The translations under genes and the position numbers were made by a program. Below the pieces are notes generated by a model that saw nothing but the letters and a program-made list of their open reading frames with translations, ran no database searches and was not told the DNA's origin. 43,497 nt of DNA, from assembly GCF_000308715.1 (NCBI RefSeq), contig NZ_BAGH01000055.1, positions 1 to 43,497 on the forward strand, read 5' to 3'. The DNA comes from Nocardia tenerifensis NBRC 101015 (GTDB lineage Bacteria; Actinomycetota; Actinomycetes; Mycobacteriales; Mycobacteriaceae). Positions 25,560 through 42,930 of this stretch are shown piece after piece. Positions within the stretch are counted from its first letter, which is position 1, and each line of letters starts with the position of its first letter.

Positions 25560-25607
25560 CCGTAAGATCGGCCACCGCCGATCATTCGACCGTGTCTGGA
25601 GGTACCG
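25560..25607 (+). promoter_or_regulatory. Duplicated upstream element of DUF6545 copy 2
   Basis: CCGTAAGATCG (25560-25570) and TGGAGGTACCG (25597-25607) repeat the elements upstream of copy 1 (24391-24401 and 24429-24439). The distance to the ATG that follows is 48 nt here against 49 there. TAAGAT could be the -10 hexamer. Confidence 0.6.
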
Positions 25608-25661: not shown

Positions 25662-26752
25662 CGACGCCCGCGCCGATGTGGCTCGACCTCGCGGCGACCG
25701 CGGTGCTGTGCGTGGTCACGCTGACCAGATGGGTGCTGGTCGACTCGACGCCGACCTCCCGGCTGGTCAATCGCGCGGCCTCGTGGGTGGCGGCGGGGGC
25801 GGTCGCGCAGCACGCCGTGCTCGCCGCCGGGCACGAAGCGCTGGGCGTTCGGTTGTTCCTGTTCTGCTCGGTGCTGTCGATCGCCGATATCTACGGGCTG
25901 GCAAGGCTTTTCGCGGGTGCGGATCCGGCGGGCACTTGGGACCGGCAGCGCCGCTACGACATCGCGGCTGCGCCGGCGGGGCTGGTCGCGGTGCTCGCCG
26001 GGCCGCCGGAAGGCGCTGGGGGAGCGGGCTTCTGGGTGCGGGCGGTGATCAGTTGGTCGGTGTTCAACGGTCCGCTCTTGGTGGCCGGGCTGCACATCAC
26101 GCGGGCCTGCCTGCGTGATATCCGAGTGGAAACCTCGCTGCTGAAGCAGGTTCCGTACCTCGGCTTGCTCATGTTGACGACGGGCTGGTACCTCGGCGCG
26201 GGTCTGACCGTGTGGCAGGCATTCGACGGCAAGCCGCCCGGCGCGATCTCGGTCAGGTGGAGTTTGGTGTCGTGCCTGTTCTGTGTGCTGGTCGCGTGCA
26301 TCATCGCGGTACCGCTGGTCAATGTGCTGATGGCGCGCGCGGGGTTGGACCGGACCGGACGACAGCTGCGCCGGCTGGAGCCGCTGTGGCGCGATCTCAC
26401 CACGGCCGTCCCCGAGGTCGTGCTGCCCGCGGGCGTCGGCCGCGGACGCGATCCCGAGTCACGCCTCTACCGGATGACCGTGGAGATCAGAGACGCGCTG
26501 TTGCAACTGCGACCACATCTGTCCGACGACCACCGGCCCGGGGCGTCCGTCGAGCTCTACGCGACGCAGATCGCCCGGGCGGCGCGCGCCAGGGCGGCCG
26601 GGGTCGCTCCCGTCGGCGCGCCGCCGCCGCGCTTTCACCAGACGTCGGCGCGGGACATGACCTCCGAACTCGGGCACCTGCTCGACCTGGCGCGCCACTG
26701 GCCGAAGGCCCGCGCGCTGGTCAGCGGTCGCGCGCGGGCGAGCCGACGATGA
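25658..26752 (+). CDS. DUF6545 / MAB_1171c-family membrane protein (copy 2)
   Basis: 364 residues from the ATG at 25658. It has the same plan as copy 1: hydrophobic helices to about residue 230, then L-W-R-D-L-T-T-A-V-P-E-V-V-L and R-L-Y-R-M-T-V-E-I-R-D-A-L-L. Identity to copy 1 is clear, though the proteins have diverged. An in-frame GTG at 25592 exists, but the ribosome-binding site there serves the leader ORF. The last 32 nt overlap the 3' end of the convergent SagB-type gene. The function is unknown; proximity to the iron locus is the only hint. Confidence 0.75.
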   Translation: MTTPAPMWLDLAATAVLCVVTLTRWVLVDSTPTSRLVNRAASWVAAGAVAQHAVLAAGHEALGVRLFLFCSVLSIADIYGLARLFAGADPAGTWDRQRRYDIAAAPAGLVAVLAGPPEGAGGAGFWVRAVISWSVFNGPLLVAGLHITRACLRDIRVETSLLKQVPYLGLLMLTTGWYLGAGLTVWQAFDGKPPGAISVRWSLVSCLFCVLVACIIAVPLVNVLMARAGLDRTGRQLRRLEPLWRDLTTAVPEVVLPAGVGRGRDPESRLYRMTVEIRDALLQLRPHLSDDHRPGASVELYATQIARAARARAAGVAPVGAPPPRFHQTSARDMTSELGHLLDLARHWPKARALVSGRARASRR

Positions 26753-27998: not shown

Positions 27999-28042
27999 AC
28001 CGCTGACCTCCGCTGATCGATCCGATGTGGTTGTGGTGCAGG

Positions 28043-29020
28043 CTATTTCGCCGCGGCGGCGAAGGCCGGCGCCAACTTGTCGAGAATGTAGGGCAGCGAC
28101 AGCGGGGTCGGGGCGTTGATCGCGCTGATCTCCTGGGTGGTGAGGAACGCCACCGAGCCCTTGCGCACCGCGAGCAGATCGCCGTAACCGGGCAGCTGGC
28201 GGTACTTCTCGTCCATACCGGGGGAGTAGCCGGCGAGCAGCAGGTCCGCGGTCAGCTTGTCCACCCGCTCCGGCGAGAGCGCGACTCGGCCCTGGCTGGC
28301 GGGCAGGTCGGTGAGCTGCTTCGGAATCCCCATGCCCAGCTCGGTGAACAGCCTGGCGGAGCCGTCGCCGGAATCGGTGACCACCATCAGCTGCGTGGCG
28401 CTCGCCAGCCAGGTGGTCGCGAAGGTCTTGCCCTTCAGCCCCGGGTTGGCGTGGCCGATCGCCTCGATCTTCTGGTCGACGTCGGCGATGACCTTCGCGG
28501 CGGCGTCCTGCTTGTGCAGCACCTTGCCCAGCGTGGTGACCTGATCCTGCCAGGGCGCCACCACGTCTTTGCTGAGCGCGGGCAGGGTCGGGGCCACCTT
28601 GGACAGCTCGTCGTAGGTCTTCTGGTCGGCGATGAACGGATCGGCGAGGATGAGGTCCGGCTCCAGCGCCGCCACCTGCTCGGCGATGTTGCCGGTCTGG
28701 TTCAGCGCCTTTCCGCCGTCGAGCGTCTTCGGCTCCCACGGCGGCGTGCTCTTGGACAGCGTCGCGACGTTGTCGACGTACCCGACCGGCGTCACGCCGA
28801 GCGCCAGTGTGGTGTCGAGCCACTGATTGCCGAGGGTGACGATCTTCTTGGGGATGCCGGGCACTGTGGTCGAGCCGCGCGCGTGCGTGATGGTGATCGG
28901 CTCGCCCCCGGAGTCCGCGTCGTCGCTCGACGAACCGCAGGCGGCCAGGCCGAGCGTCAGCGCCGCCGCGACGGCCAGCACCGTGGCTCTCGCCCAGCGC
29001 GATGTGCGATCAGACTCCAT
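28043..29020 (-). CDS. Ferric-siderophore ABC transporter substrate-binding lipoprotein
   Basis: 325 residues. The N-terminus has a signal peptide ending in the lipobox L-A-A-C, so the protein is anchored to the outer face of the membrane. The fold follows the FepB/FecB type of iron-siderophore binding proteins: V-P-G-I-P-K-K-I-V-T-L-G, L-A-L-G-V-T-P-V-G-Y and L-E-P-D-L-I-L-A-D. The permease and ATPase genes are not nearby, so it must work with a transporter encoded elsewhere. The ATG follows AAAGGGG. An IdeR-like box lies 60-78 nt upstream between this gene and the divergent MFS gene. Confidence 0.92.
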   Translation of the reverse strand: MESDRTSRWARATVLAVAAALTLGLAACGSSSDDADSGGEPITITHARGSTTVPGIPKKIVTLGNQWLDTTLALGVTPVGYVDNVATLSKSTPPWEPKTLDGGKALNQTGNIAEQVAALEPDLILADPFIADQKTYDELSKVAPTLPALSKDVVAPWQDQVTTLGKVLHKQDAAAKVIADVDQKIEAIGHANPGLKGKTFATTWLASATQLMVVTDSGDGSARLFTELGMGIPKQLTDLPASQGRVALSPERVDKLTADLLLAGYSPGMDEKYRQLPGYGDLLAVRKGSVAFLTTQEISAINAPTPLSLPYILDKLAPAFAAAAK

Positions 29021-29098: not shown

Positions 29099-29142
29099 GT
29101 CTCCCTCTTGATGGCAGGGCCTCATTTATGATTAGATCGGCT

Positions 29143-29154
29143 AACTATATAGTT
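29143..29154. promoter_or_regulatory. 12-bp AT-rich palindrome upstream of the MFS gene
   Basis: AACTATATAGTT is a perfect palindrome 31 nt before the GTG start. It sits in an AT-rich promoter region with GATAAT at 29161-29166. It is a candidate operator separate from the IdeR box. Confidence 0.5.
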
Positions 29155-29184
29155 TGCGGAGATAATCATTCGCGAGGGGCTGCC

Positions 29185-30969
29185 GTGACGATTCCATCCA
29201 CCGATCTCGATCTTGGCGAGGTCAGCACCATCCGCCGCAGGCTGCGGTACGACCGCGATCACCCGCACTACAAGTGGATCGTGCTGACCAACACCACGCT
29301 CGGCGTGCTGCTCACCGCGATCAACTCCTCCATCGTGCTGATCTCGCTGCCCGCGATCTTCCGCGGTGTCGGACTGAACCCGCTCGACGCGGGCAACGTC
29401 GGCTACCTGCTGTGGATGCTGATGGGCTACCTGCTCGCCACGGCGGTGCTCGTCGTGATGTTCGGCAGGCTCGGCGACCTCTTCGGCCGAGTTCGCGTGT
29501 ACAACTTGGGTTTCGCGGCCTTCGCGTTCTGCGCGCTCGCGCTGTCCTTCGACCCGTTCCACGGCGGGGCGGGCGCCATGTGGATCATCGTCTGGCGCGT
29601 GCTGCAGGGCGTCGGCGGCGCGATGCTGACCGCGAACTCCGCCGCGATCCTCACCGACGCTTTCCCTGCCAAGCAGCGCGGGACCGCGCTCGGCATCAAC
29701 ATGGTCGCGGCGGTCGCGGGATCCTTCCTCGGCCTGCTCATCGGCGGCGTGCTGTCGGAGTGGGATTGGCGTGCGGTGTTCTGGGTGAGCGTTCCGATCG
29801 GCGTCCTCGGCGCGTTCTGGTCGTACCGTTCGCTGCACGAGGTGGGCATCAGGTCGGCGGGCAAGGTCGACTGGGCCGGCACGATCACCTTCGGCCTCGG
29901 GCTCACCGCGCTGCTCACCGGCATCACCTACGGCATTCAGCCCTACGGCGGCCACGCCACCGGCTGGTCGAGCCCGTGGGTGCTCGGGTCGGTGATCGGC
30001 GGCATCGCGCTGCTCGGCGTGTTCTGCGTGGTGGAGAACCGGGTCGCGGACCCGATGTTCCATCTGGCGCTGTTCCGCAACCGCGCATTCGGGCTCGGCA
30101 ACTTCAGCAACCTCATGGTCTCCATCGGCCGCGGCGGCATGCAGTTCATGCTGATCATCTGGCTGCAGGGCATCTGGCTTCCATTGCACGGCTACAGTTT
30201 CGAGTCCACGCCGCTGTGGGCGGGCATCTACCTGCTGCCGCTCACCGTGGGATTCCTTGCGGCGGGGCCCATTTCGGGCTGGCTGTCGGATCGCTACGGT
30301 TCGCGCCTGTTCACCACCGGCGGCGCGTTGGTCGCCGGGCTCACATTTCTGCTGCTGCTGATCATTCCCGTCGACTTCAACTACTGGGTGTTCGCGGCGA
30401 TCGTCCTGCTCAACGGTATCGGCAGCGGACTGTTCTTCTCGCCCAACACCGCGGCCATCATGTCCAGCGTCCCCGCCGCCCAGCGCGGCGCGGCCTCCGG
30501 CATGCGCGGCACGCTGTTCAACGGCGGCAACGCGCTGTCCATGGGAATCTTCTTCTCCCTCATGGTCGTCGGCCTCGCCGCCAGCCTGCCCTCGGCGCTG
30601 GACGCCGGGCTGCGCGCCCAGGGGGTCTCCGCGGGCGCCGCCGCCGACGTGGCCAACCTGCCGCCGGTGGCGAGCATGTTCGCGGCGTTCCTCGGCTACA
30701 ACCCGATCCAGGAATTGCTCGGCCCCACCGGCGAATTGGCCAAGCCGGGCGTGCACGCCGATACCCTCACCGGCCAGGAGTTCTTCCCCCACCTGCTCAC
30801 CGGCCCGTTCCACACCGGTCTCGTCGTCGTGTTCGTCTCCGCCGCGATCATGATGTTCCTGGCCGCCGCGGCCTCCTTCTTCGCCGGCGACAAATACGTG
30901 CACGACGAGCAGGCCGAACTCGCCGAGGCCGCCGAACTCGCGCACACCGGACCCGTTCCCGCGCGCTGA
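29185..30969 (+). CDS. DHA2-type MFS exporter (14 TM), possible siderophore exporter
   Basis: 594 residues with about 14 hydrophobic segments. G-R-L-G-D-L-F-G-R-V-R-V is motif A, and V-W-R-V-L-Q-G-V-G-G-A-M-L-T-A-N-S-A-A-I is the DHA2 motif in helix 5. The GTG at 29185 follows GAGGGG; the longer frame from 29128 would put coding sequence over the palindrome. It is divergent to the SBP-SagB operon across the iron box, and the DHA2 family includes siderophore exporters, so that is the best guess. Multidrug export remains possible. Confidence 0.82.
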   Translation: MTIPSTDLDLGEVSTIRRRLRYDRDHPHYKWIVLTNTTLGVLLTAINSSIVLISLPAIFRGVGLNPLDAGNVGYLLWMLMGYLLATAVLVVMFGRLGDLFGRVRVYNLGFAAFAFCALALSFDPFHGGAGAMWIIVWRVLQGVGGAMLTANSAAILTDAFPAKQRGTALGINMVAAVAGSFLGLLIGGVLSEWDWRAVFWVSVPIGVLGAFWSYRSLHEVGIRSAGKVDWAGTITFGLGLTALLTGITYGIQPYGGHATGWSSPWVLGSVIGGIALLGVFCVVENRVADPMFHLALFRNRAFGLGNFSNLMVSIGRGGMQFMLIIWLQGIWLPLHGYSFESTPLWAGIYLLPLTVGFLAAGPISGWLSDRYGSRLFTTGGALVAGLTFLLLLIIPVDFNYWVFAAIVLLNGIGSGLFFSPNTAAIMSSVPAAQRGAASGMRGTLFNGGNALSMGIFFSLMVVGLAASLPSALDAGLRAQGVSAGAAADVANLPPVASMFAAFLGYNPIQELLGPTGELAKPGVHADTLTGQEFFPHLLTGPFHTGLVVVFVSAAIMMFLAAAASFFAGDKYVHDEQAELAEAAELAHTGPVPAR

Positions 30970-31023: not shown

Positions 31024-31838
31024 ATGAACTCCGCGCCACCCTTGCTGACCGGCCTCGTCGTGCTCTTCGCCAGTCTCGTCGTCGGTGGCCGATGGTTGCT
31101 CGTCAACGAGACGAGCACCGACCATCTGATAAACCGAGCGTTGAGCTGGGATATCGGGTCGGTCATCGGGTACGCGGCCGCCGCGAGCCTCGGCCACCCG
31201 GATCTCGGGCAGCGGGTGTTCCTCGCGATAGGCGCACTGTCGCTGTCCAATTCGTTCGGGTTCGCCGCGCTGCTGGGCGGCGCCGATCCGCGGTCGGTGC
31301 GCGGCCGGCAGCGCCGGTACGACGCGTTCGCCGCGTCCTTCGGCGGCGCCGTACTGATCTGTGCCGCGGCCGAGGAGATCGGTCTGCCACTGCATCGCTT
31401 CGTGGACTGGGAGCGGATGGCCTGGGTGGTGGTCTATGTGTTCCTCGCGTGGACCGGGCTGCTGCTCGTCCGTGCCTGCGTTCGTGAACTGCGTTGGGCC
31501 GCAACGACGATGCGGCCCGGGTGGTCCTGCACTCGCGGGACTCCGCGCGCGCCGGATCCGCCTCCCGTCTGTACCGCATGACCGTCGAGATCGGCGACGC
31601 GCTACTACATCTGCGGCAATTCGCTCCCGACACCGTGTCGTCCCGGGCCGAAACCATCGGCGACTACGCCCTGCGCATCGCTCAGGCCGCCGAGCTGAAG
31701 CGGCGGGGCATCCCGGCGCCAGGCCGAACAGAGCACTCACACAGCGTGATTCGTCCGCCCGCCGAAGATCGCACGGCCGAGCTGAGGAACTTGCTCGCGT
31801 TGTCGCGTGTCTGGCCGCCTGCCCAGGCCGCGGTGTGA
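31024..31838 (+). pseudogene. Decayed third DUF6545 / MAB_1171c copy (internal deletion and frameshift)
   Basis: The N-terminal frame (31024 to about 31490) has the family pattern (W-L-L-V-N-E-T-S-T-D-H-L-I-N-R-A-L-S-W, then G-G-A-D-P-R-S-V-R-G-R-Q-R-R-Y-D-A-F). It then stops at 31581 in a different context. A second frame, ending at 31838, resumes with S-A-S-R-L-Y-R-M-T-V-E-I-G-D-A-L-L-H-L and the C-terminal L-L-A-L-S-R-V-W-P-P-A-Q-A. About 90 to 100 residues, including the later membrane helices and the L-W-R-D-L-T block, are missing near 31490-31525. Both halves align with copies 1 and 2. Confidence 0.78.
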
Positions 31839-31860: not shown

Positions 31861-32310
31861 CTAAGTTTGGTGGACCGGTGCCGGGCCGCACGCCGCGGCG
31901 ATGGCCGCGGTGTCCCAATAGAACGGGTGTACCTCGGAGATTCGGTCGTCCGTGATCGTAATCGTCTGCAGGATGGGGAAAGTCAGCTCGTTGCCGGTCG
32001 CGCGGGAGCGGGCGTGGACGCGGGTGTGCACGACGGCGGTCTCGCCGGTCGCCAGAAAACGCTGCTCCAAAAGGTCGAAGGCCGACCAGGTGCGGGCCAT
32101 CGCGAGGAAGAACTGTTCCATGCCATCGTGACCGTGCCAGGTGCCGCCGTAGGGCAGGCCGGCCGCCTGGTGCAGCACCACGTCGGGCGCGAAGAAGGGT
32201 GCGAGCAGGTCGAACGAGGCGCTGCCCGGCCCACCCGCCGCCAGGTATTCGCCCTCGGCCGCGTACATCCCGGTCAGCACGGCCATCGAATCGGTGGTTG
32301 ATCGCGTCAT
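31861..32310 (-). CDS. NTF2/SnoaL-like domain protein
   Basis: 149 residues with the plan of the NTF2-like alpha+beta barrel. A helical start (M-A-V-L-T-G-M-Y-A-A-E-G-E-Y-L-A) is followed by L-L-A-P-F-F-A-P-D-V-V-L-H, G-T-W-H-G-H-D-G-M-E-Q-F-F and the strands up to E-V-H-P-F-Y-W-D. Proteins of this fold are isomerases, hydrolases or small-ligand binders; which one cannot be told. The ATG at 32310 is preferred over the frame start at 32412, whose extra 34 residues look like non-coding sequence. It is cytosolic and stands alone, convergent with the decayed DUF6545 copy. Confidence 0.7.
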   Translation of the reverse strand: MTRSTTDSMAVLTGMYAAEGEYLAAGGPGSASFDLLAPFFAPDVVLHQAAGLPYGGTWHGHDGMEQFFLAMARTWSAFDLLEQRFLATGETAVVHTRVHARSRATGNELTFPILQTITITDDRISEVHPFYWDTAAIAAACGPAPVHQT

Positions 32311-32559
32311 GCGCTCAGTCTGCCCAGGACGCCCCGGCTCGGACCGGCGCTTATCGGACGTCGCGATCCACACGTCCGCGACGAAGCTGAGCGGCGTAAG
32401 AAAACTTCGCAACGCAGGGAACCGATCGGCATGTCATTGCGTCAGAAGAGGTATAGGCCAGAGCTCGGGGCCTCGAGAGCCGCTCACGCGTCTCCCGAGA
32501 TACCCGGTCTCGCGTCATATCGATTGGTAGCGGATAAGGATCCGCTGGGAGGGGGCTCC

Positions 32560-33294
32560 ATGGGAACCAATGTCGCTGTTGCCGAGGACCTCGTGCGAGG
32601 GGAACGCATGCATGTCAACCGAGGCGCCGACGAATCGAAGCTGTGGGTACACGCGGGCCTGCGCAAGAATTTCGACGCCATCCGCCCGAGGCTGTCGGGG
32701 ATCGTGCCGAACGCCGACGCCGTCGAGTTCATCGACTACGACGAGATCAACACCCGGGTCGGCCGCGCCGACGGCCCGGTCATGCTTCCGGTCAACACCG
32801 AGTACCAGGCCGACGAGCTGCGCTTCATCCGCGCACACCACCCCACCGTCTTCCTCGTCGCGGTCACCCACGACCTGACCGGGCACTCCACCTACTACGC
32901 CATGCGGGCGGGCGCGAATTTCGTCATCAACCTGGCGATACCGTGCGATCGGGCAACGGATCTCGGCGCCGCCGACCTTCGACTACGGGCAACGGCCCAC
33001 GAGCGACCGACCGCCGACACATCGGCAGGCCCGGAATCCGACGCCACCCCGAACCGCGGCAGCGTCCGATACCTCACCCAGCGAAGCAGACCTCCGGTCG
33101 CCCCCGCCGAACTCGACCAAGCCGACAAGCAATTGATCCAGATGCTACGAACCTCGCTGACGGTGGCCGACATCGCGCGACGAAGCTACATGTCCGAACG
33201 CTCCATGTACCGCCGCATCAGAAAGCTGTACAACGCCCTCGGCGTCACCGGCCGCACCGAACTCATCCAGGCAGTGGATCGACTAGAAGCATAG
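32560..33294 (+). CDS. Atypical response-regulator-like protein with LuxR-type HTH
   Basis: 244 residues. The first 130 resemble a receiver domain in secondary structure (V-M-L-P-V-N-T-E, F-L-V-A-V-T-H-D, A-M-R-A-G-A-N-F-V-I-N), but I find no convincing phosphoacceptor Asp or acidic pair, so it is probably an atypical receiver. After a Thr/Pro-rich linker the end has L-T-V-A-D-I-A-R-R-S-Y-M-S-E-R-S-M-Y-R-R-I-R-K-L-Y-N-A-L, a LuxR/GerE-like helix-turn-helix. The ATG at 32560 follows GGGAGGGGG; an earlier in-frame ATG at 32431 lacks a ribosome-binding site. No kinase is adjacent. It is the only regulator close to the lanthipeptide cluster. Confidence 0.65.
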   Translation: MGTNVAVAEDLVRGERMHVNRGADESKLWVHAGLRKNFDAIRPRLSGIVPNADAVEFIDYDEINTRVGRADGPVMLPVNTEYQADELRFIRAHHPTVFLVAVTHDLTGHSTYYAMRAGANFVINLAIPCDRATDLGAADLRLRATAHERPTADTSAGPESDATPNRGSVRYLTQRSRPPVAPAELDQADKQLIQMLRTSLTVADIARRSYMSERSMYRRIRKLYNALGVTGRTELIQAVDRLEA

Positions 33295-33328: not shown

Positions 33329-35386
33329 TCAGAGCCGCACCCGCATATCGGCGGGCAGGAACATCTTGTCGTCCTCTTCGACGTCGAAGGCCGCATGGAA
33401 CTCATCGATGTTGCGCACCACTTGGTTGCATCGAAACTCGTTGGGCGCATGCGGGTCTGCGGCCAACTGACGGATCTGCTGTTCGGGTCGAAGCTTCGCG
33501 CGTCTGGCCCGGGCGTACGCCAGGAAGACTGGGGCGTAGTCCGGGTTCTCGTTGCCTTCGGCACGGCGAAATGCCGCCAGCGCCATCGTGAGGCCGCGGA
33601 GATCGGCGAGGTTCTCGCCGACGGTCAGCGCGCCGTCGACATGGTTTTCCGGCGCGAGTCCGCTCGGTACCAGCGAGTCGTATTGCGCGATCAGAGCTCT
33701 GGTGCGCTGGTCGAACGCACTGCGGTCCGCAGGCGTCCACCAATCGCGCAGGTTGCCCTCACCGTCGAACCTCGATCCCTGATCGTCGAAGCCGTGGCCG
33801 ATCTCGTGCCCGATCGTCGCGCCGATACCGCCGAAGTTCACCGCGGGCTCCGCATCGGGATCGAAATACGGTGGTTGAAGAATGCCCGCGGGGATCAGGA
33901 TCGCATTGTTGTTCCAGTCGTAGGAGGCGTTCACCTCCTGCGGTGCCATGTTCCACTCGTACCGGTCCACCGGAGTACCGAGTTTGCCGAACATTCGTTT
34001 CCACTCGTGTCGCATCGTTGCTCGGATATTGGCGATGCGTTGCCCTTTGACGATGGTCAGCTCGGTGTAGTCCCGCCAGGTATCGGGATACCCCGTCTTG
34101 ACGGTGAGTTTCTCCAGCTTGGCCAAAGCAGCGTCGCGGGTGGCCTGCGACATCCAGCCGCTCTGCTCGAAACTCTCTCGATAGGCCGCCAGGATGTTCG
34201 CCACCAGCTCATCCGCACTCGCCTTGGACTCCGGCGGAAAGTGCTGTGCCACGTACAGTTTGCCCAGCATCTGGTCCAGATACGTGGTGACCGAATCCAT
34301 CGCCGCCTTCTCGATCGGCAGCCGCTGCGCCTGACCGCCGCGGGTCCGTTCGAAGAACTCGAAACTCGCGTCGGAGAACTCCCGACCCAATTGCGCGGCG
34401 AACTCCCGGACGACCCCCAGACGCAGGTATTCGCGCCACTCCGCGATATCGACCTCCGACCACAGGCGCGCCGCGGCGACCACATAGGACGGCTGCGCGA
34501 GCACGATCGTGTCGAAGAGGGCCGGTTTGTCCGAGTAAGCGCCGAGCCAGGCGTCCCACTCGAATCCTGGTGCCATATCGAGGAGTTCATGCCAGCGCCG
34601 GGGGTTGTAGGTGGCAGACGCGTCGCGATTGCGCACCTCGTCCCAGTGCGCCGCGGCGATGCGGTGCTCCAGTTCGAAAACCCGTCCTGCCATGCCCGCC
34701 GGCTCGGTGAACCCGGCCGTGCGCGCGATCCGCTCGAGAAAACCTCGATAGGCGGTCCGCTGGTCGGCCATGGCGGGGGATTGGAAGAACGAGGCCTTGA
34801 ACCGCAATCCGGCCTGGCCGAGTTGCGGACGGTACGTGGCCGAGTCCTTCCCGTCGGGGAACACCACCATGGCGAACAGGCTGCACGCGGCAAGCGCGTT
34901 GTTGTGCGGCAGTTCCAGCGCGATCGATCCCATCACACGCGCCAGATCCCCCTTGGTCACGGCTCCGTCTATACGCTGGAGGAGGTCCGCGATGGGTGCG
35001 ATGCCGAGCCGGTCCGCGGCGCTCTCGTCCAGGCAGGCGTCGTAGAAGTCGCGGATCCGCTGCTCGTCGGATCCGGGTGCCGGGTCGTGGATCGCCTCGA
35101 TGATCGTCCTGAGCTGGTCCTGGACGCGGTCGGTGACCTCGAAGCCGGTGCCGTAGGCGGTCTTGTCCGGCGGCAATTGGTAGTCGCGCAACCACTTGCC
35201 GTTGGTATGCCGATAGAGATCATCTTGCGGGCGGATCATCGTGTCTGCATCCCTCAGATCTGGTCCGGAACCGACATGTGGTCCCTCGTAACACCCCGTC
35301 GCCAGGGTGAGAGTCGCGGGGATGGTCGCCACAGCGAGCAGAAATGCGCGCCGATCGAGCCCCCTCGGTATGCCTCGACTGCTCAT
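33329..35386 (-). CDS. M13-family (neprilysin-like) zinc metallopeptidase, Tat lipoprotein (copy A)
   Basis: 685 residues. The start follows GGAGGT. D-R-R-A-F-L-L-A-V is a twin-arginine signal and T-G-C a lipobox, so the enzyme is exported folded and tethered outside. The zinc site H-E-I-G-H is at residues 527-531, and the third ligand Glu lies in G-E-N-L-A-D-L-R-G; N-A-S-Y-D is the M13 N-A-x-Y block for substrate binding. M13 enzymes cut peptides of limited length before hydrophobic residues. It is a paralog of the gene at 40707 with higher GC content. It is encoded just upstream of, and divergent from, the lanthipeptide genes. Confidence 0.92.
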   Translation of the reverse strand: MSSRGIPRGLDRRAFLLAVATIPATLTLATGCYEGPHVGSGPDLRDADTMIRPQDDLYRHTNGKWLRDYQLPPDKTAYGTGFEVTDRVQDQLRTIIEAIHDPAPGSDEQRIRDFYDACLDESAADRLGIAPIADLLQRIDGAVTKGDLARVMGSIALELPHNNALAACSLFAMVVFPDGKDSATYRPQLGQAGLRFKASFFQSPAMADQRTAYRGFLERIARTAGFTEPAGMAGRVFELEHRIAAAHWDEVRNRDASATYNPRRWHELLDMAPGFEWDAWLGAYSDKPALFDTIVLAQPSYVVAAARLWSEVDIAEWREYLRLGVVREFAAQLGREFSDASFEFFERTRGGQAQRLPIEKAAMDSVTTYLDQMLGKLYVAQHFPPESKASADELVANILAAYRESFEQSGWMSQATRDAALAKLEKLTVKTGYPDTWRDYTELTIVKGQRIANIRATMRHEWKRMFGKLGTPVDRYEWNMAPQEVNASYDWNNNAILIPAGILQPPYFDPDAEPAVNFGGIGATIGHEIGHGFDDQGSRFDGEGNLRDWWTPADRSAFDQRTRALIAQYDSLVPSGLAPENHVDGALTVGENLADLRGLTMALAAFRRAEGNENPDYAPVFLAYARARRAKLRPEQQIRQLAADPHAPNEFRCNQVVRNIDEFHAAFDVEEDDKMFLPADMRVRL

Positions 35387-35567
35387 CGATACCTCCACGT
35401 CGTCGGATCGGTGCTTCGAAGCCTCGACAGCACGAGACGTAGCCAAGACACACCGGCTTCTCGCGAGTAGTTTCTCCCTATTGAGGCGACATTATGGGAA
35501 GCTAACGCGGGCGGTAGCATCTTCGTACTAAATCTAACCGCCGGGCGCATCGACCGGTAATTCATTC

Positions 35568-35807
35568 ATGATCCCACCGTGCGTCACCAGCGACATCGCT
35601 ACACTGGTGCAGTGTCCCGGGCGGCTCATCGATGGCGTGGAAACGGTTGAAATAAAGGAACGTCTCGACGTGAAGTAAGAACTACTACATGCACTGACTG
35701 CGCGCAAGGTGCTCGGGTTGGATGGCAGCATTCCGGCAGTGGGCTTCTGGCAGGCATTGGCAGACTCATGGCAGGTTCCGATATTGACGTTCGAACCGAA
35801 TCGGTGA
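35568..35807 (+). pseudogene. Gene remnant with an internal stop, upstream of LanKC
   Basis: One frame reads from an ATG at 35568 to a TGA at 35805 with a single TAA at 35676-35678. The peptide parts look protein-like: G-R-L-I-D-G-V-E-T-V-E-I-K-E-R-L-D-V-K before the stop, and R-K-V-L-G-L-D-G-S-I-P-A-V-G-F-W-Q-A-L-A after it. CAA to TAA would explain the stop. I do not recognise the family. The antisense frame looks less like protein. Confidence 0.4.
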
Positions 35808-35810
35808 AAA

Positions 35811-35840
35811 GTTGACACAGCGTACAGCAGTGGTCAACAT
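35811..35840 (+). promoter_or_regulatory. Promoter of the lanthipeptide operon with inverted-repeat operator
   Basis: A consensus -35 TTGACA (35812-35817), a 17-nt spacer and CAACAT (35835-35840) as -10. GTTGAC (35811-35816) and GTCAAC (35833-35838) form a perfect inverted repeat over both elements, a natural repressor site. Transcription would start within about 6 nt of the TTG start codon. Confidence 0.6.
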
Positions 35841-35852
35841 TAGGGTGAGCGT

Positions 35853-38369
35853 TTGAGATTCGAACAGTACTGCATAAGTGATCGCGAGTTCTATACGGAC
35901 CCGGGCTCTAGGGGGGCTTATGAACTGATTGTGCTTGACGCGGATTTGACTGGATACGAGGTCGTCTCAGAGGGCTACTGGACCAATCTGATTCCAAAAT
36001 TGGGTCCGCAGATCGATATCCAAGGATGGAAGATTCATCTGAGCGCTGCGTTCGGTCGTGAGCAAGAAGTCATTAAAGCGGCGGTAGATATTTGCAGCAC
36101 ACAGTCAATGCCCTTCAAGTATGTATCATCCATTCCGCAGTACCGTTTGTATAATTCCAAGCATGCGAATCGTAGTACTGCAGGAAAGCTGGTTACGATA
36201 TATCCGAGAATTGATCTTCTGGAGCAGACACTCAGGAGACTCGATGACCATCTTAGGCATATTGAGGGTCCACATATCCTCTCCGATGTACGCTGGAGTA
36301 ATGGGCCGGTATTCGTCCGCTTCGGGGCATTTAAGCGTATGGAACATGATGGCAAGTTCTGCGTGTTGCGACCTGATGGTTCATGGGATGAAGATCGACG
36401 CCAGCCCTGGTTCATCCTGCCGGACTGGGTCACCGTACCGGATTTCTTGAAGCCTGCCGTCGATCGTAAAGAACTATATGACGTTCCGTTCAATGTCGAA
36501 TCGGTCATCCGACAATCCAACGCAGGCGGCGTGTATTCAGCTTACATGATCGCCACCGGCGAAGAGGTGGTTGTCAAGGAAGGCAGAAGGCATGCCGGTT
36601 ATACGAGGGATGCTGCTGATGGGCACGCCCGCATAAGGCACGAGGCAGAGGTACTCCGCCGTTTGGCCGGAGCCGAAGCGACCCCTCGTGTCGTATGGGA
36701 AGGGGATGTAGGTGGCCACTACATGGTCGCGTTGTCCAAGATGGTGGGTATGACTCTGGAACGATGGATTGTGCTGAACATGCCGCTGTACAGTTCGTTG
36801 CCAAAGGATTGGCAAGAATACGCAAGTAGATGCAATCAGATAGTGAACCGACTGATCGATGCTGTCGCCGGAATTAATGCCGCTGACGTTGTTCATGGTG
36901 ACATTCATCCGCAGAACATTCTAGTCGACCCTAGCAATTTAAGTATTGCTATAATCGACTTTGAGACAGCGACGTCGCTTGTCGGAATGTTGACGCGAGC
37001 AATCAATGCTCCTGGATACACCGTGCCGGATGAGATTGAAACTTCGCACGCCGATCGATACGCAATAACGAAGTTGATTACTGATATGCTGACCGCAAGG
37101 GTTGAGCATGAAGATATCACCGATGAACGATACAATTGGGCCCTTCCTGTGCTGCTGGAGCAAATATCAGCTAAGAATGGCTCAGCGCCGGCCGCGATGC
37201 TTCAAATGATCGAAACGCGCCGCCGTATATTAGTAGATATCGGTTTACATGAAAAATCGGACATCGAGCCACCGGTGGCAAATTTCATTGCTAAGTTGCG
37301 CGCCGATATGCCCGCCGTGATGGCGGCATCGCAAAGTAGATTCGGTCACCTGCCCGTACATTACAGTGTGTTTGAGGATGAACTCAGCGGTGTCGGATTG
37401 GGCTTTGCGGGTCATGCGATTGCGCTCTACCCTGAACGTGATGAGTCATTGATTATCGGCATCACCAACGAAGCGCAGCGGTCCACCCGAGTAGGGATGT
37501 TCGACGGGCTATGTGGCTCCGTGTACGGCCTGCTTCGCCTCGGTGCCGAAACAGATGCTGTAGCCTTAATCGACGGTGTTGACCTGCTCGGTAGTGCACC
37601 CAGCATGCGAGTATTCGACGGAGCGGCGGGCATCTTAATTGCAGCGCTGAAGGCGGAGGCGTATGGCGCTGTCGTTAAAAAGATTTCAAGTAACCTCCAA
37701 CGGGACATTGGCGAAGTTGCGCGTCAATATCTTGCCGCCACGGGCATGGATCATAAAGTACGCAGCATCAGGACGAACAGGTTCGTGTTGCAGAATTCGG
37801 GTCTTATGTACGGGGACCTTGGGCTGGCGTGGTTATTCGCCGAAGCGTATATCCGCTTCGGAAGCACCCTTTTCATCGATGCGATGAATCATGCATTGAT
37901 GAGCGAGCTGCGCAGTTACGAGTTCACACCGGGAGGTGGGTTGCAATTTGAAGACAACGGACGGCTGCTGCCATATCTAGCCACTGGATCGGCAGGATTT
38001 GGTGTCGTCTTACACGATATCCCCGCTGACCTCGTTAATCCCGCGGTGAGCGCTGTCATTCCCGACCTAATTACCGCCTGTGCCCCTACGTTCAGCGCAA
38101 GTTGCGGTTTGTTCAACGGGTACTCCGGGTTGTTCTATGGCAGAAACGGGCTGAAGAAGTTCATGGGAGCCGATCTGGCGCCGCTTGCAGATCTGGATAC
38201 CTCGGTCCGCGCCATGGCCGTTTATACCTCATTCGAAGCCTGGGCGGTGCCGAGTGATGAAAACTTTCGGGTTACCACGGATTTCGCGACTGGCGCTAGC
38301 GGCATAATTCATGTGGCAAATATGGTCAGATCTGGGTACTACGGGCTGCTTCAGCCTCTACAAACGTGA
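35853..38369 (+). CDS. lanKC: Class III lanthipeptide synthetase (LanKC)
   Basis: 838 residues in three domains: an N-terminal phosphoSer/Thr lyase (about 1-200), a Ser/Thr kinase (about 215-470, with Lys242 in V-V-V-K-E, catalytic loop H-G-D-I-H-P-Q-N at 348-355 and metal-binding D-F-E at 369-371) and a LanC-like cyclase (about 500-838). It phosphorylates core Ser residues with NTP, eliminates phosphate and cyclises Cys onto dehydroalanine in the cytosol. The cyclase lacks the Cys-Cys-His zinc ligands: Cys-Gly-Leu-Phe-Asn-Gly-Tyr-Ser-Gly at 751-759 replaces the C-H-G-x-x-G block, as in class III, not class IV. The TTG start follows AGGGTGAG and gives a typical LanKC N-terminus. The gene is AT-richer than its surroundings. 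Its substrate is the precursor at 38439. Confidence 0.93.
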   Translation: MRFEQYCISDREFYTDPGSRGAYELIVLDADLTGYEVVSEGYWTNLIPKLGPQIDIQGWKIHLSAAFGREQEVIKAAVDICSTQSMPFKYVSSIPQYRLYNSKHANRSTAGKLVTIYPRIDLLEQTLRRLDDHLRHIEGPHILSDVRWSNGPVFVRFGAFKRMEHDGKFCVLRPDGSWDEDRRQPWFILPDWVTVPDFLKPAVDRKELYDVPFNVESVIRQSNAGGVYSAYMIATGEEVVVKEGRRHAGYTRDAADGHARIRHEAEVLRRLAGAEATPRVVWEGDVGGHYMVALSKMVGMTLERWIVLNMPLYSSLPKDWQEYASRCNQIVNRLIDAVAGINAADVVHGDIHPQNILVDPSNLSIAIIDFETATSLVGMLTRAINAPGYTVPDEIETSHADRYAITKLITDMLTARVEHEDITDERYNWALPVLLEQISAKNGSAPAAMLQMIETRRRILVDIGLHEKSDIEPPVANFIAKLRADMPAVMAASQSRFGHLPVHYSVFEDELSGVGLGFAGHAIALYPERDESLIIGITNEAQRSTRVGMFDGLCGSVYGLLRLGAETDAVALIDGVDLLGSAPSMRVFDGAAGILIAALKAEAYGAVVKKISSNLQRDIGEVARQYLAATGMDHKVRSIRTNRFVLQNSGLMYGDLGLAWLFAEAYIRFGSTLFIDAMNHALMSELRSYEFTPGGGLQFEDNGRLLPYLATGSAGFGVVLHDIPADLVNPAVSAVIPDLITACAPTFSASCGLFNGYSGLFYGRNGLKKFMGADLAPLADLDTSVRAMAVYTSFEAWAVPSDENFRVTTDFATGASGIIHVANMVRSGYYGLLQPLQT

Positions 38370-38409
38370 CGCCATGGAACGGCGTTATGAGTCTCGGTAA
38401 TCACCGAGA
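38369..38409 (+). promoter_or_regulatory. Two intercistronic hairpins between lanKC and lanA
   Basis: ACGCC (38369-38373) pairs with GGCGT (38381-38385). TCTCGGT (38392-38398) pairs perfectly with ACCGAGA (38403-38409) around AATC, followed by TGTAGTTT. Such stems between a synthetase and its precursor gene can block 3' exonucleases or act as a leaky terminator, adjusting precursor to enzyme ratios. Confidence 0.55.
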
Positions 38410-38438
38410 TGTAGTTTCACGAGAAAGTCAGGAATCGG

Positions 38439-38585
38439 ATGACGCAAATCAATGTCCTCGACCTCCAAAAGATGACAGAGGACCCGGGCTACCCAGGCGA
38501 ATATCAGACGGCCTGGAGTGGGGTCAGCTGGTCTAAATGCAAGGGCCCGAGTGTGCTTAGTCATAACAACTGCGGTTGGGACTAA
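38439..38585 (+). CDS. lanA: Class III lanthipeptide precursor peptide (two labionin motifs)
   Basis: 48 residues, too short for ordinary gene calling. AGGA (38430-38433) lies 5 nt before the ATG. The leader carries V6-L7-D8-L9-Q10, the helical L-x-L-Q-type motif recognised by LanKC enzymes. The core, from about Ser27, has two perfect Ser-x2-Ser-x3-Cys motifs: S27-G-V-S30-W-S-K-C34 and S38-V-L-S41-H-N-N-C45, ending C-G-W-D. That spacing is the labionin pattern of labyrinthopeptin. Both Cys lie only in these motifs. One extra Ser (32) and three Trp (26, 31, 47) are present. It is preceded by LanKC and followed by an ABC transporter, the labyrinthopeptin order. The leader/core border is not fixed by sequence. 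Confidence 0.92.
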   Translation: MTQINVLDLQKMTEDPGYPGEYQTAWSGVSWSKCKGPSVLSHNNCGWD

Positions 38586-38587
38586 GT

Positions 38588-38600
38588 AGCCTAATAGGCT
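38588..38600 (+). promoter_or_regulatory. Small hairpin directly after lanA
   Basis: AGCCT-AAT-AGGCT, two bases after the precursor stop, is a 5-bp stem with a 3-nt loop and no T-run. It could mark the 3' end of a processed lanA transcript. The stretch 38601-38707 holds no convincing gene. Confidence 0.35.
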
Positions 38601-38707
38601 GTAGTGGCAGCGCTGTTGCACTCGATGTTAAGCATACTAGTGTAACGGCGTTGCCGTGCGGCTACATGAGTCGACGATTAAGCGGGATAATTATATGGGG
38701 TGGGACA

Positions 38708-40642
38708 GTGAGAAAAGTTCGACTTCCCAAGGCGAATGGACCGCAAGCGAGATCACTGCTTTTTGCCCTGGAGAATATCGCTGAGCCCGGGTGGGTGAAG
38801 GATCGACACAGTGTCGCATCGGTGAGCACCGTCGACAGCTTCCGCAACCTTCCTAAGACCTTGCGGCTGACGATCGCTACAGGTTGGGGTGCTGCGCCGC
38901 TGCTGGTAATTGCTGCCGGAGTAATTAGCGTAGTCAGTGGAATTCTGACAGCGTTCGGCCTATTGGCGACAGCTGATGCGCTTTCTGTGCTTCTGCGAAC
39001 TACCATTACTCCTGAGCGGATCTCTGAATCAATCCCTGAAGTCTCGCTCGTGCTCGTCATCTACTCGGCGCGCGCCCTGATCGAAAGCCTAGAACGAACA
39101 GTCGAAGCGAGCGTGCGTCCCCATGTAGCATGTGCAGCCGAGAATAATCTCGCGCGGGTGGTGTCAGGTATCGATGTAATCGCGTTTGAGGACGCGAGTT
39201 TTCGTGAATTGGCGGCACAGGGTGGACAAGCGGGAGTTCGTGCGTTGGCGAACAGTGTGACGCCACTGTTGGGACTGCTGTCATCTATCGCGACGGTAAC
39301 TGCATCTGTCGTTGCAACATCGTTATTTCATCCATTACTCGCCATAGGCGTTGTCGTGGCATGCGTTCCGTCGGCGTGGGCCGCTTCTCGTAGCAGTAGA
39401 CTAAACAACTTGCATATGCTTGGGACGGTATCCGATCATTTGCAGAAGTCGATTCTTGCTGAGATATCTACCGACAGTAGATTTGCGATGGAAAGAGCGG
39501 TATTTGGGCTTCGAGATCGACTTATTGTCGAGTATGAGCTGGTTTCTAAAAGGTTGTGTCAAAAGGAAATAACGTCAGGGCTGAAGCGAGCTCGTATACA
39601 GCTGGCTGGGCGCGCACTATCAGGTTTATCCGGCGCAGTAGCCTTTGGTGTGCTCGCCATTCTCTTGTATACGCGGTGGATAGACGTGGCAGTGGCGGGT
39701 GCTGCGGCAGTAGCGATGCGTGTGTCTATAACTTCGGTGACTGGTGCGGCCGGCCGTTTGTACAACCTATTCGAACTGGGCTTCAGCATTGAGCTTTATA
39801 AGGATCTACTACGAGGGGCTGCTGAGCGTCGCAGGTCGGTCGGCTCGGTCGCGTTCCTCGAAACGGGTCCTGACATTATCACGATGAGCGCCGTCGGTTT
39901 CTGCTATCCGGGCCACTCCCGGCCGTCACTGTGCGATATTAATTTAACAATAGGTCGAGGTGAAGTCGTCGCGATTGTCGGCCGGAACGGCTCAGGGAAG
40001 TCGACGCTGGCTAAGATCATCGGCGGGTTATATGTGCCCTCGATCGGGAAGGTCTTTTGGAATAGTGTCGATCTGGCGTATGTGAGAGAGAATGATATTC
40101 GAAAGAACGTGTCGTTTGTCGCGCAGACCCCCATGGCCTGGCCCACTACGGCTGGTAACAATGTGGAAATCGGTTGCCATGCAGATCTTCCCATCAAGGA
40201 GTGGTGGGATCGGTCGCTTAAGGTTTCCGGCGCTGGTGATGTTATCGACTCGTTGCCACACAAGATGGAAACACTGTTATCGACTAGGTTTGTCGACGGT
40301 CGTGATCTCTCTGTAGGCCAATGGCAACGGTTGGCCATCGCCCGCGCACTGGTACGCAATGGTTCCATCTTGATAGCGGATGAAGCGACTTCCGCATTAG
40401 ATCCGCACGCCGAGAGCCAGGTTCTCGAATTCTTGACCAGCAGCAAAGAGTCGATGAACCAAGTGACGACGATCTTTGTCACCCACCGCATACTCAACGC
40501 GCGAAAGGCTGATCGAATTGTCGTCATGGAAGGTGGACGGATCGTGGAGACTGGGTCGCACAATGAGTTGATGCAGAACCCTGAAGGTCACTACCGCCTC
40601 ATGTACGAGGTTCAGGTCCCGCCGATCAATACTCGCGGCTAA
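38708..40642 (+). CDS. lanT: ABC transporter, fused permease and ATPase (lanthipeptide exporter)
   Basis: 644 residues. About six hydrophobic helices (roughly 45-330) precede the ATPase: Walker A G-R-N-G-S-G-K-S-T near residue 425, signature L-S-V-G-Q near 534, Walker B I-L-I-A-D-E-A-T-S-A-L-D near 560 and the H-loop T-H-R. The N-terminal 40 residues are too short for the C39 peptidase found in class I/II LanT, so the leader must be removed by something else. The GTG at 38708 follows GGGGTGGG; the open frame from 38576 is the 3' end of lanA in another frame and was rejected. It most likely exports the modified peptide, or protects the producer. Confidence 0.9.
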   Translation: MRKVRLPKANGPQARSLLFALENIAEPGWVKDRHSVASVSTVDSFRNLPKTLRLTIATGWGAAPLLVIAAGVISVVSGILTAFGLLATADALSVLLRTTITPERISESIPEVSLVLVIYSARALIESLERTVEASVRPHVACAAENNLARVVSGIDVIAFEDASFRELAAQGGQAGVRALANSVTPLLGLLSSIATVTASVVATSLFHPLLAIGVVVACVPSAWAASRSSRLNNLHMLGTVSDHLQKSILAEISTDSRFAMERAVFGLRDRLIVEYELVSKRLCQKEITSGLKRARIQLAGRALSGLSGAVAFGVLAILLYTRWIDVAVAGAAAVAMRVSITSVTGAAGRLYNLFELGFSIELYKDLLRGAAERRRSVGSVAFLETGPDIITMSAVGFCYPGHSRPSLCDINLTIGRGEVVAIVGRNGSGKSTLAKIIGGLYVPSIGKVFWNSVDLAYVRENDIRKNVSFVAQTPMAWPTTAGNNVEIGCHADLPIKEWWDRSLKVSGAGDVIDSLPHKMETLLSTRFVDGRDLSVGQWQRLAIARALVRNGSILIADEATSALDPHAESQVLEFLTSSKESMNQVTTIFVTHRILNARKADRIVVMEGGRIVETGSHNELMQNPEGHYRLMYEVQVPPINTRG

Positions 40643-40671
40643 TTGTGACTACTTCGAAACTGGGCGAGGAG

Positions 40672-40703
40672 GGTCGGGCCGTCGATACATGCACGGCCCG
40701 ACC
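40672..40703. terminator. Bidirectional terminator between lanT and M13 copy B
   Basis: GGTCGGGCCGT (40672-40682) and ACGGCCCGACC (40693-40703) form a perfect 11-bp stem with a 10-nt loop, followed by TTGTT on the plus strand. It closes the lan operon and the convergent peptidase gene. Confidence 0.88.
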
Positions 40704-40706
40704 TTG

Positions 40707-42740
40707 TTACAGTGCGACGCGCTGGTCCGGGGGAAGGTACAGCCGATCAGATTCTTTGACGTCGAAAGCTGTGTAGAATTCCGGCAGATTGCGAACCACT
40801 TGGTTGCAGCGGAACTCTGCAGGCGAGTGGGTGTCGATGGCGAGAAGTCGCTCTGTGTACTCCTTCGTTTGTTTTTCTCGCCAACTGCGGGCCCAGGACA
40901 AGAACATCGTCCGGAGATCCGGTTCTTCACCCCTCCGCTGCGCTGCGCGCAGGTAGGCGGCCAGCGCGATCTGCAGTCCCCGGAGGTCCGCCAGGTTCTC
41001 TCCGACGGTGAACTCACCGTTGACATGTTTACCTGGATCGACGCCCTCGGGCACGAGCACGTCATATTGGGCGATCAGTTGATTGGTTTTGGCGTCGAAT
41101 GCAGTCCGGTCAGTCGCTGTCCACCAGTCTCGGCGGTTCCCGTCGCCATCGTACTTGGATCCCTGGTCATCGAATCCATGTCCAATCTCGTGTCCGATGG
41201 TGGCGCCGACCGCGCCATAATTGACCGCAGTCTTTGCGTCCTTGTCGAAGAACGGTGGCTGGAGATACGCCGCCGGAAAAACGATCTGATTGAAGGTTGC
41301 CTGGTAGTACGCGTTGACGGTTTGTGGGGTCATGCTCCATTCGGCCTTATCAACTGGCTTGCCGAGCTGGTCGAACGAACGCTTCGCTTCGAAATCATTG
41401 ATGGCACGCAAGGAATGGATTAGCCGGCCTCTCGTGACCTGAAGTTTAGAATAGTCGACCCATTTATCTGGATAGCCGATCTTCGTATCGAATTTTTCCA
41501 ACTTTGCTATCGCCGCTGCACGGGTCTCCGGTGACATCCATGAGGACTTCGTGAAACTTTCCTTGTATGCAGCCATCAGATCGCCGACCATCTCTATGGC
41601 GCGGTCTTTGGCTTTCGGTGGAAAGTATTCCGCCACATACAGCTTACCTAGCTGCTCACCCAGATATTCGTCTATCGTCGCGACTGCAGACTTCCAACGC
41701 TCTGGACGCTCGTCCTGGCCGTTGATGATCCGGCCAAAGAAGTCGAAGTTCGCGTCGTTGATTGCCTTGGGCAGAAATTTGGCGTATGTACGAACGAGGT
41801 ACAACTTCAAATAGTCGCGCCAGAGAGCAATGTCTACGTCAGCCCACAACTTGCCGGCCTCGACGATGTACGAAGGCTGACCTACCACCAACGTTTCGAA
41901 CAGTCGTTTCGGTTGATCGGTGGTACCGGCCAACCAAGCATCCCAATCGAATTGAGGTGCGCTGGAGATCAGTTCGTTCCAACTGCGGACGTTGTATGTC
42001 GCGTCCGCATTTCGATTGCGGACGCTGTCCCAATGCCCAGCCGCGATCCGCTTCTCCAGGTCGAATACCCGTTGTGCCATAGCTGTCGGCTCTGGGAATC
42101 CGGCTCCAATGGCGATTCGTTCCAGAAACGTACGGTATCCATCGAGCTGTACAGAGAACTCAGGCTTGCGGTAGTACTGCTCGTTGAGGCCGGTGCCTGA
42201 CTGAGTCAGCGTCGGAATGTGCTTGGTCGAGTCTTTCCGATCGATGCCGACGCTCAACCCGATGAGGCCTGCGATAGGCAACTCGGCCATGACCTTGGCC
42301 AGATCCTGCTTAGCGGTCGCCGTATCGATCTTGGCGAACAGATCCTCCAGCGGTGACATACCCTGTCGTTCGATTTCGTCGAGATCGAGCCGGGCGTCGT
42401 ACAGATCGCGAATCTGCTGCGCTTCAGAGCCGGCCTTGGGATCTTTGATGCCTTCTATGATGGCGCGGAGTTGCATCTCCGTTCGGTCCGACGCTTCGCT
42501 CGATGCCCCCACCGACACCTTGTCCGGCGTCAGTTGAAACTCGCGGAGCCATTTGCCGTTGACGTAGCGATACAGATCGTCCTGTGGACGGATGGTCTCG
42601 TCGGCGCCGCTCAAGTCCACCGCGGTGAGTGGTTTGCTCTCGTCGTCCGAGCATCCGACCAGTGCTGCTGCAGCGGGCACGAGCCCGAGCGCGAGCAGGA
42701 ATGCACGCCGATCAAGGCGCACCGAGTCCGACGCTGCCAC
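40707..42740 (-). CDS. M13-family (neprilysin-like) zinc metallopeptidase, Tat lipoprotein (copy B)
   Basis: 677 residues from a GTG at 42740 behind GGGGAG. An ATG at 42824 would add a long extension before the signal. D-R-R-A-F-L-L-A-L-G is the twin-arginine motif and V-G-C-S the lipobox. H-E-I-G-H is at about 517-521, with the third ligand in G-E-N-L-A-D-L-R-G, and N-A-Y-Y is the substrate-binding block. It clearly aligns with copy A along its length but is AT-richer, like the lan genes. It shares the lanT terminator region. A role in cleaving the exported precursor's leader, or in self-protection, is the natural hypothesis; general peptide turnover is the alternative. Confidence 0.92.
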   Translation of the reverse strand: MAASDSVRLDRRAFLLALGLVPAAAALVGCSDDESKPLTAVDLSGADETIRPQDDLYRYVNGKWLREFQLTPDKVSVGASSEASDRTEMQLRAIIEGIKDPKAGSEAQQIRDLYDARLDLDEIERQGMSPLEDLFAKIDTATAKQDLAKVMAELPIAGLIGLSVGIDRKDSTKHIPTLTQSGTGLNEQYYRKPEFSVQLDGYRTFLERIAIGAGFPEPTAMAQRVFDLEKRIAAGHWDSVRNRNADATYNVRSWNELISSAPQFDWDAWLAGTTDQPKRLFETLVVGQPSYIVEAGKLWADVDIALWRDYLKLYLVRTYAKFLPKAINDANFDFFGRIINGQDERPERWKSAVATIDEYLGEQLGKLYVAEYFPPKAKDRAIEMVGDLMAAYKESFTKSSWMSPETRAAAIAKLEKFDTKIGYPDKWVDYSKLQVTRGRLIHSLRAINDFEAKRSFDQLGKPVDKAEWSMTPQTVNAYYQATFNQIVFPAAYLQPPFFDKDAKTAVNYGAVGATIGHEIGHGFDDQGSKYDGDGNRRDWWTATDRTAFDAKTNQLIAQYDVLVPEGVDPGKHVNGEFTVGENLADLRGLQIALAAYLRAAQRRGEEPDLRTMFLSWARSWREKQTKEYTERLLAIDTHSPAEFRCNQVVRNLPEFYTAFDVKESDRLYLPPDQRVAL

Positions 42741-42930
42741 CAAAACCCGCTCCCCGGCGCGGGGCTGTTCCCGCACCATCTCTAGTAGTGAGTGTGCTGC
42801 GGACGAGGCTACAGGGATTGCCATCTCAGAGAAGCGGTCAGAGGTCGATGCGTCGGGCTGGTGAGTGGAAGATGCTGTAGCGATCCTTGATGTCGCAGCA
42901 GGATAGAGCAAAGCCCGACCACGCACTATC

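Follow-up and report, generated by a model that had tools for sequence, protein, structure and literature searches.

The SapB/AmfS (Ram/Amf) systems combine a LanKC-type enzyme with a precursor that carries an LDLQ leader and two Sx2Sx3C motifs, and the same features are found in the LanA system of Nocardia tenerifensis NBRC 101015 described here. Labyrinthopeptins also possess two labionin-type motifs, with a Trp in the first ring, and an additional Cys that forms a disulfide, whereas the two ring Cys are the only cysteines of the LanA core. Within the genus, the class III peptides of Nocardia brasiliensis contain a single cysteine and carry SxxSxHHC (PMC11251773). Judged by their published description, in the text available to us, they resemble LanA in their Nocardia host, their labionin motif and their His-bearing ring, but differ in having one Cys, hence one ring. 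They are the nearest peptides that we found in the open-licence literature consulted, which contains no description of the LanA family.

The window, i.e., the whole stretch of DNA that was analyzed (43,497 nucleotides), contains an operon of three genes that is flanked on both sides by M13 peptidase genes on the opposite strand:

32431-33294, + strand: 287-aa protein with a weak C-terminal helix-turn-helix (HTH scores below cut-off)
33329-35446, - strand: M13_L, second predicted M13 zinc metallopeptidase, HEIGH, a divergent copy (PF05649/PF01431)
35853-38369, + strand: LanKC, predicted class III lanthipeptide synthetase, 838 aa, TTG start (Pfam, NF038151, active-site residues)
38430-38438, + strand: Shine-Dalgarno region of LanA, AGGAATCGG before the ATG (sequence)
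38439-38585, + strand: LanA, predicted precursor, 48 aa (translation; six-row alignment with homologous precursors)
38708-40642, + strand: predicted ABC exporter (fused permease and ATPase), 644 aa, likely GTG start (PF00005, 3e-28)
40707-42926, - strand: M13_R, predicted M13 zinc metallopeptidase, HEIGH (PF05649/PF01431)

Positions 38439-38585 (+) translate to MTQINVLDLQKMTEDPGYPGEYQTAWSGVSWSKCKGPSVLSHNNCGWD, followed by a stop codon. The translation bears out the gene as the initial annotation had described it, with its own Shine-Dalgarno, LanKC and ABC genes on its two sides, an LDLQ leader, two rings, the Trp, Lys and His residues of the core and the GWD end. Gaps of 69 nt and 122 nt separate it from the stop of LanKC and from the likely GTG start of the ABC gene, respectively. 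Its ATG is closely preceded by AGGAA, and AGGA is similarly placed in all four homologous precursors inspected. The leader, which spans about residues 1-19 to 1-26 (predicted cleavage range), contains L7-D8-L9-Q10 within VLDLQK, and the core holds the rings S27-x2-S30-x3-C34 and S38-x2-S41-x3-C45 together with W26, W31, W47, K33, K35, H42 and the C-terminal GWD. Both Sx2Sx3C motifs, which conform to the class III core pattern S-x2-S-x(2-5)-C, as well as V6, L7, L9, Q10 and K11, are invariant in the six aligned precursor rows. Of the 274 small ORFs (30-110 aa) in the window, LanA alone combines LxLQ with two Sx2Sx3C motifs. The pattern recurs in 59 of the 11,497 small ORFs of the other loci compared (80 of these loci were chosen by their LanKC, and some loci overlap), and none of 200,000 shuffles of the LanA peptide retained both rings. 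The NCBIfam class III precursor model gives LanA 20.3 bits and its homologues in N. wallacei, N. asiatica and N. araoensis 24.6, 22.5 and 21.5 bits (cut-off 22), while the N. abscessus homologue reaches 28.7 bits with a curated precursor model (cut-off 30).

The TTG start of LanKC is supported by homologues that begin at the same residue. Two of its Pfam matches exceed the cut-off (RamC_N, 3.4e-52, 177 bits; Pkinase, 3.6e-10), LANC_like falls just below it (22.4 bits, cut-off 23.2), and NF038151 matches residues 4-820 with 569.4 bits (1.5e-170, cut-off 575). Scores just below the curated cut-offs, for LanKC as for LanA, are as expected of a divergent branch. Among its relatives of solved structure are 8sao, 8sap and 8sam, chains entered as class III LanKC (residues 3-413 of LanKC), and 8wgo, entered under the name protein kinase domain protein, which matches in two stretches (33-423 and 534-819). 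The stretches LATGSAG (709-715) and LFNGYSG (753-759), which we take to be the places of the zinc ligands (Cys, Cys, His) of LanC enzymes, contain neither Cys nor His, and the cysteines of the whole protein are at positions 7, 81, 170, 327, 554, 743 and 751. According to the text available for ThurKC, its lyase residues K65, H67, K94, K108, K117, D152, R163 and R191 are closely conserved in labionin-making enzymes (PMC10604976). By order and local motif, their counterparts in LanKC are K60, H62, K89, K103, K112, D145, R156 and R183, all eight of which are invariant in the seven aligned clade members. The kinase residues are H348, D350, N355 and D369-F370-E371 (DFE), and ThurKC is described as likewise having a Glu in its DF(G/E) motif (PMC10604976). 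N755 stands at the position of ThurKC Asp771, the loss of which is stated to stop cyclization (PMC10604976); in the solved structure 8wgo, too, this position is Asn. By its domains and residues, LanKC is thus predicted to be a class III synthetase, composed of a lyase, a kinase and a LanC-like domain devoid of zinc ligands.

Precursor homologues lie just 3' of LanKC in N. araoensis, N. asiatica, a N. wallacei-like genome (G208) and two N. abscessus strains, the G208 precursor being identical to that named for N. wallacei. The class III reading put forward earlier is thus supported both by the adjoining LanKC and by homologues that occupy this position in four further lineages of Nocardia, and the contrary case that had been raised, a segment unconserved in homologous clusters, was examined and does not apply. 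The precursors of N. araoensis and N. asiatica differ silently at 16 codons and by amino acid at three (dN 0.028, dS 1.01, dN/dS about 0.03), those of N. asiatica and G208 at 20 and four, respectively; between LanA and its homologues dN is 0.27-0.33, with dS of 1.1, 2.1 and one value not computable. The precursor family is under strong purifying selection, and 38439-38585 very likely represents a real class III lanthipeptide precursor gene. The precursors of N. wallacei (P0045, 49 aa), N. araoensis and N. asiatica share with LanA the leader pattern, the ring order and the place after LanKC and before the ABC gene, but LanA has two extra residues before GEYQT, its rings are joined by K-G-P instead of G-G-V, and the window operon sits between two M13 genes. 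The N. abscessus precursor (P0048, 50 aa) is like LanA in its leader (VLDVLxLQK), in having both ring modules, in its LanKC, which is 46-47% identical to that of the window, and in an M13 gene nearby. However, its rings come in the opposite order, and its locus has no match to the window ABC protein at E 1e-3.

The family was found in few of the genomes searched. Close relatives of LanKC (E reported as 0) were found in 6 of 150 Nocardia genomes, including that of the window, and two further genomes matched the profile more weakly (E 1e-61 to 1e-67). The precursor profile matched 9 of 148 Nocardia genomes, six of them strongly (E 1e-25 or better), which are the very genomes with a close LanKC; the three others (E 0.001-0.01) were taken as chance matches. 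Nor did a survey of 397 genomes from the whole order point to a spread beyond Nocardia: the precursor profile matched just one of them at E 1e-4, that of the window itself, a weak test, since 17 candidates were scored per listed genome and the sample may omit the five other carriers. In the LanKC tree, which carries long-branch warnings, the window protein groups with the N. araoensis group (100/99), apart from N. abscessus and N. barduliensis (100/100), and Nocardia sp. CS682 forms its own branch. Searched against 5.8 billion proteins, the LanA peptide alone matched only itself, and the precursor alignment retrieved four more proteins, all of the same family: one of N. wallacei named "class III lanthipeptide", "hypothetical proteins" of N. 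araoensis and N. abscessus, and one without a name. Part of the family is therefore already annotated by name. The first impression of a product unlike any other of class III holds for the peptide searched alone, but gives way to the existence of homologues 56-60% identical to LanA, the named one among them. That LanA itself lacks an annotation is ordinary, as 55% of class III precursors are unannotated according to the available text of PMC7268733.

To place the core among other class III peptides, we used 72 precursor candidates near the 80 LanKC genes, collected with a simple pattern that allows Thr for Ser, misses the known precursor of locus L029 and would miss LanA. Two rings of spacing 3 are present in 60 of the 72 (inner motif taken where two overlap; a first reading of the same set gave 51 with spacings 3 and 3), so the identical double spacing that the initial annotation had singled out is the usual layout. 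The composition of the rings sets the family apart more clearly. The variable ring positions of LanA have a mean hydropathy of -0.40, compared with -0.74 to -0.84 for the other Nocardia precursors, and among the 60 precursors of usual layout, the three Nocardia rows are negative while all other 57 reach +1.45 or more. Outside that layout, polar rings occur in Crossiella (L099, one ring) and Streptomyces (L079, one ring; L073, two rings), and L071, L075 and L086 have one polar ring out of two. Polar rings are thus rare in class III, though not unknown, and of the unusual core composition claimed earlier the rarity stands, whereas uniqueness among the 72 precursors does not. Compared with the Leu/Val-rich SapB and AmfS, the LanA rings are polar and aromatic; rows with the rings SRASLLLC and SSLSVTTC, found among the LanKC-near precursors and presumably SapB-like, have a hydropathy of +1.45. 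A SapB-type morphogen label was rejected for LanA, given these polar rings and a score with the SapB/AmfS model NF033212 (16.6 bits) below its cut-off of 25.

We consider it highly probable that LanA is a class III precursor, conserved beside a related LanKC in four other Nocardia lineages, that would be made into a two-ring secreted peptide by LanKC and the predicted ABC exporter. In the route that we propose, the LDLQ helix of the leader would dock on LanKC, the kinase domain would phosphorylate Ser27, Ser30, Ser38 and Ser41, and the lyase domain would remove the phosphates to yield dehydroalanines, to which the zinc-free cyclase domain would add Cys34 and Cys45. This would produce two labionin (or lanthionine) rings joined by K-G-P, in a peptide that the ABC protein would then export. 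The leader would be trimmed by a zinc metallopeptidase, which could be a flanking M13 lipoprotein, working on the outer side of the membrane, or an M1 enzyme from another locus. Given its polar and aromatic rings, the peptide would more likely act as a signal or a narrow-spectrum antagonist than as a SapB-type surfactant.

The longest ORF of the ABC gene starts at 38576, the likely start being the GTG at 38708. Its product is 56% identical to the ABC proteins encoded at the corresponding position in N. araoensis and N. asiatica, and the alignment with them begins at residues 57-61 of the longer ORF. In these two species, we also observed a small protein just 3' of the ABC gene (L030:14909-15178 in N. 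asiatica, L029:14774-15133 in N. araoensis) whose start is signal-like and whose tail is conserved (PGPPKTPCNQRNDGQTTVGSDG...WECSFEGGYFHWIQ), possibly a further member of the cluster. The three operon genes have a G+C content of 53-54%, below the 68% of the window left of 33300, and the operon was thus probably acquired by transfer. A plasmid-borne cluster was considered and rejected: region 35400-41000 has no DNA match in 72,556 plasmid records, 81 of which contain protein matches to LanKC, all less than 60% identical. The 287-aa protein at 32431-33294 is a possible regulator, judged by its weak helix-turn-helix; it is matched in 6 of 10 chosen genomes, with homologues near LanKC in N. asiatica and the N. 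wallacei-like genome and elsewhere in three others. Farther upstream, the window encodes a SagB/ThcOx-like peptide dehydrogenase of 700 aa (26721-28823, - strand), adjoined by MFS, DUF6545-like and SnoaL-like genes (29128-30969, 31024-31581, 31861-32412) and by two adjacent MAB_1171c/DUF6545 family proteins (24332-25519 and 25592-26752, + strand). Much of the SagB/MFS/DUF6545/SnoaL set is also found near resident M13 genes of other Nocardia, which suggests that it forms a separate conserved peptide-maturation locus.

As to the removal of the leader, we lean towards the view that the flanking M13 genes are bystanders, the operon having entered next to the resident Nocardia M13 locus, and that the leader is cut by an M1 (AplP-like) enzyme or another protease whose gene lies outside the cluster. 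M13 matches are present in 146 of 148 Nocardia genomes, and four in that of the window, which also encodes six Peptidase_M1 matches over the cut-off. M13_R shares up to 72% identity with M13 genes from other Nocardia and 53% with M13_L, it groups with the resident gene in two trees (support 97/84 and 87/90), and the SagB-like, MFS, DUF6545 and SnoaL-like neighbors are common to the window and the resident M13 loci. Based on this resident type and these shared neighbors, the operon most likely entered beside a resident M13 gene. Moreover, M13 matches are lacking in the 10-kb flanks of LanKC in N. araoensis and N. asiatica, and among the 80 LanKC loci (flanks up to 10 kb, some shorter) only the two of N. 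abscessus have one in their flank. This last exception speaks against mere bystanders, since the extra, divergent M13 gene of N. abscessus is about 1.2 kb away from LanKC and does not share a contig with the resident copy, so that M13 and LanKC are paired at two different sites. M13_L, too, is not of the resident type: it sits on a long branch in the trees, and its placement as sister of M13_R was rejected (p-AU 0.011). The window contig ends (at 43497) about 570 bases past M13_R, and a second resident-type M13 gene (L153:1735-3774) is found on the same strand near the start of another contig of this genome; the two contigs may be neighbors.

As for the product itself, the enzyme may form simple lanthionines, leaving some dehydroalanines unreacted, or mixed rings that involve Ser32, in place of two labionins, although this is not the outcome we expect. 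The available text of PMC7268733 reports that, depending on the class III peptide, Sx2Sx3C yields either lanthionine or labionin. S32, inside ring A, could compete, and the cyclase has N755 in place of Asp771. On the other hand, both Ser of each motif are invariant in all six precursors, including those with swapped rings, as expected if both are used. Since dehydration could extend to S32 and T24, the loss of four waters predicted at first is best taken as a minimum guess. For a loss of four, the calculated monoisotopic mass of the core is 3110.355 if it begins at G20, 2924.291 at Y22, 2532.122 at A25 and 2275.005 at S27, each lowered by 18.011 if Ser32 or Thr24 is dehydrated as well.

The converse idea about the M13 proteins, that one of the flanking lipoproteins is a dedicated leader peptidase acting extracellularly after ABC export, we regard as rather unlikely. 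In its favor, all three LanKC-linked M13 proteins (the two here and that of N. abscessus NBRC 100374) have HExxH and Tat-lipoprotein-like N-termini (read by eye as RRAFLLALG...LVGC in M13_R and RRAFLLAVA...ATGC in M13_L), and two lineages, at different sites, have an M13 gene next to LanKC. According to the available text of a RiPP protease review (PMC10885120), class III and IV leaders are cut by zinc metallopeptidases belonging to the families M1, M16 and M61. Yet the word M13 is absent from the text available of that review and of a class III protease paper (PMC8960859), N. araoensis and N. asiatica lack an M13 gene close to LanKC, and a clade of M13_L with the N. abscessus protein is neither supported nor rejected (p-AU 0.081).

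The order of the rings in N. abscessus deserves separate consideration. In the window, N. araoensis, N. asiatica and G208, ring 1 reads S-x-[IV]-S-W-S-[KR]-C and ring 2 S-x-L-S-H-N-[NK]-C-G, whereas both N. abscessus genomes have STLSHNEC-G as ring 1 and SYISWHGC as ring 2. Their precursors (L031:12607-12759 and L032:12608-12760) belong to a sister clade. BLOSUM62 scores over the variable positions between N. abscessus and the others are 26-29 with the rings swapped and -1 to 3 unswapped. When the N. abscessus residues were permuted (200,000 draws), the swapped score was reached in either order in 0.19% of draws for the window, 0.025% for G208 and 0.008% for N. araoensis and N. asiatica; the order difference was matched in 3, 1.3 and 0.2%, respectively. 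Convergence between short motifs with no rearrangement seems quite unlikely to us. In its favor, there are only five variable positions per ring, and for the window pair alone a random permutation matches the order difference in 3% of draws. The rings of L082 and L085 (Nocardiopsis suaedae and Streptomyces rimosus) also align better exchanged, with a difference of 23, nearly as large as the 26-30 seen here, and order exchange or chance likeness may therefore occur elsewhere in class III. Against convergence stand the 0.008% for N. araoensis and N. asiatica, the flanks that travel with the rings in the N. araoensis group (TS-x-ISW and LSHN-x-CG, only the second being kept in the window), and the fact that the top three order differences of 595 pairs (26-30) are all between N. 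abscessus and other Nocardia. The more ambitious combined proposal, in which S-x-[IV]-S-W-x-x-C and S-x-L-S-H-N-x-C-G would be autonomous modules exchanged in order by rearrangement of the core and the peptide would in addition be matured extracellularly by M13 neprilysin-type lipoproteins, appears improbable as a whole. A chance ORF or decayed gene at 38439-38585 was rejected in view of the shuffles, the conservation and the dN/dS.

The family bears on several questions. If an M13 protein removes the leader, this would add a peptidase family to a maturation step that the available text of PMC8960859 calls barely understood. A natural pair of synthetases whose precursors carry the same rings in opposite order could be used to test whether LanKC acts ring by ring, independently of their order, as well as what determines labionin formation, an open question according to the available text of PMC10604976. 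As the non-Nocardia rings of the usual layout that we compared are all hydrophobic (57 of 60 precursors), the Nocardia family would be a good place to seek non-surfactant activities.
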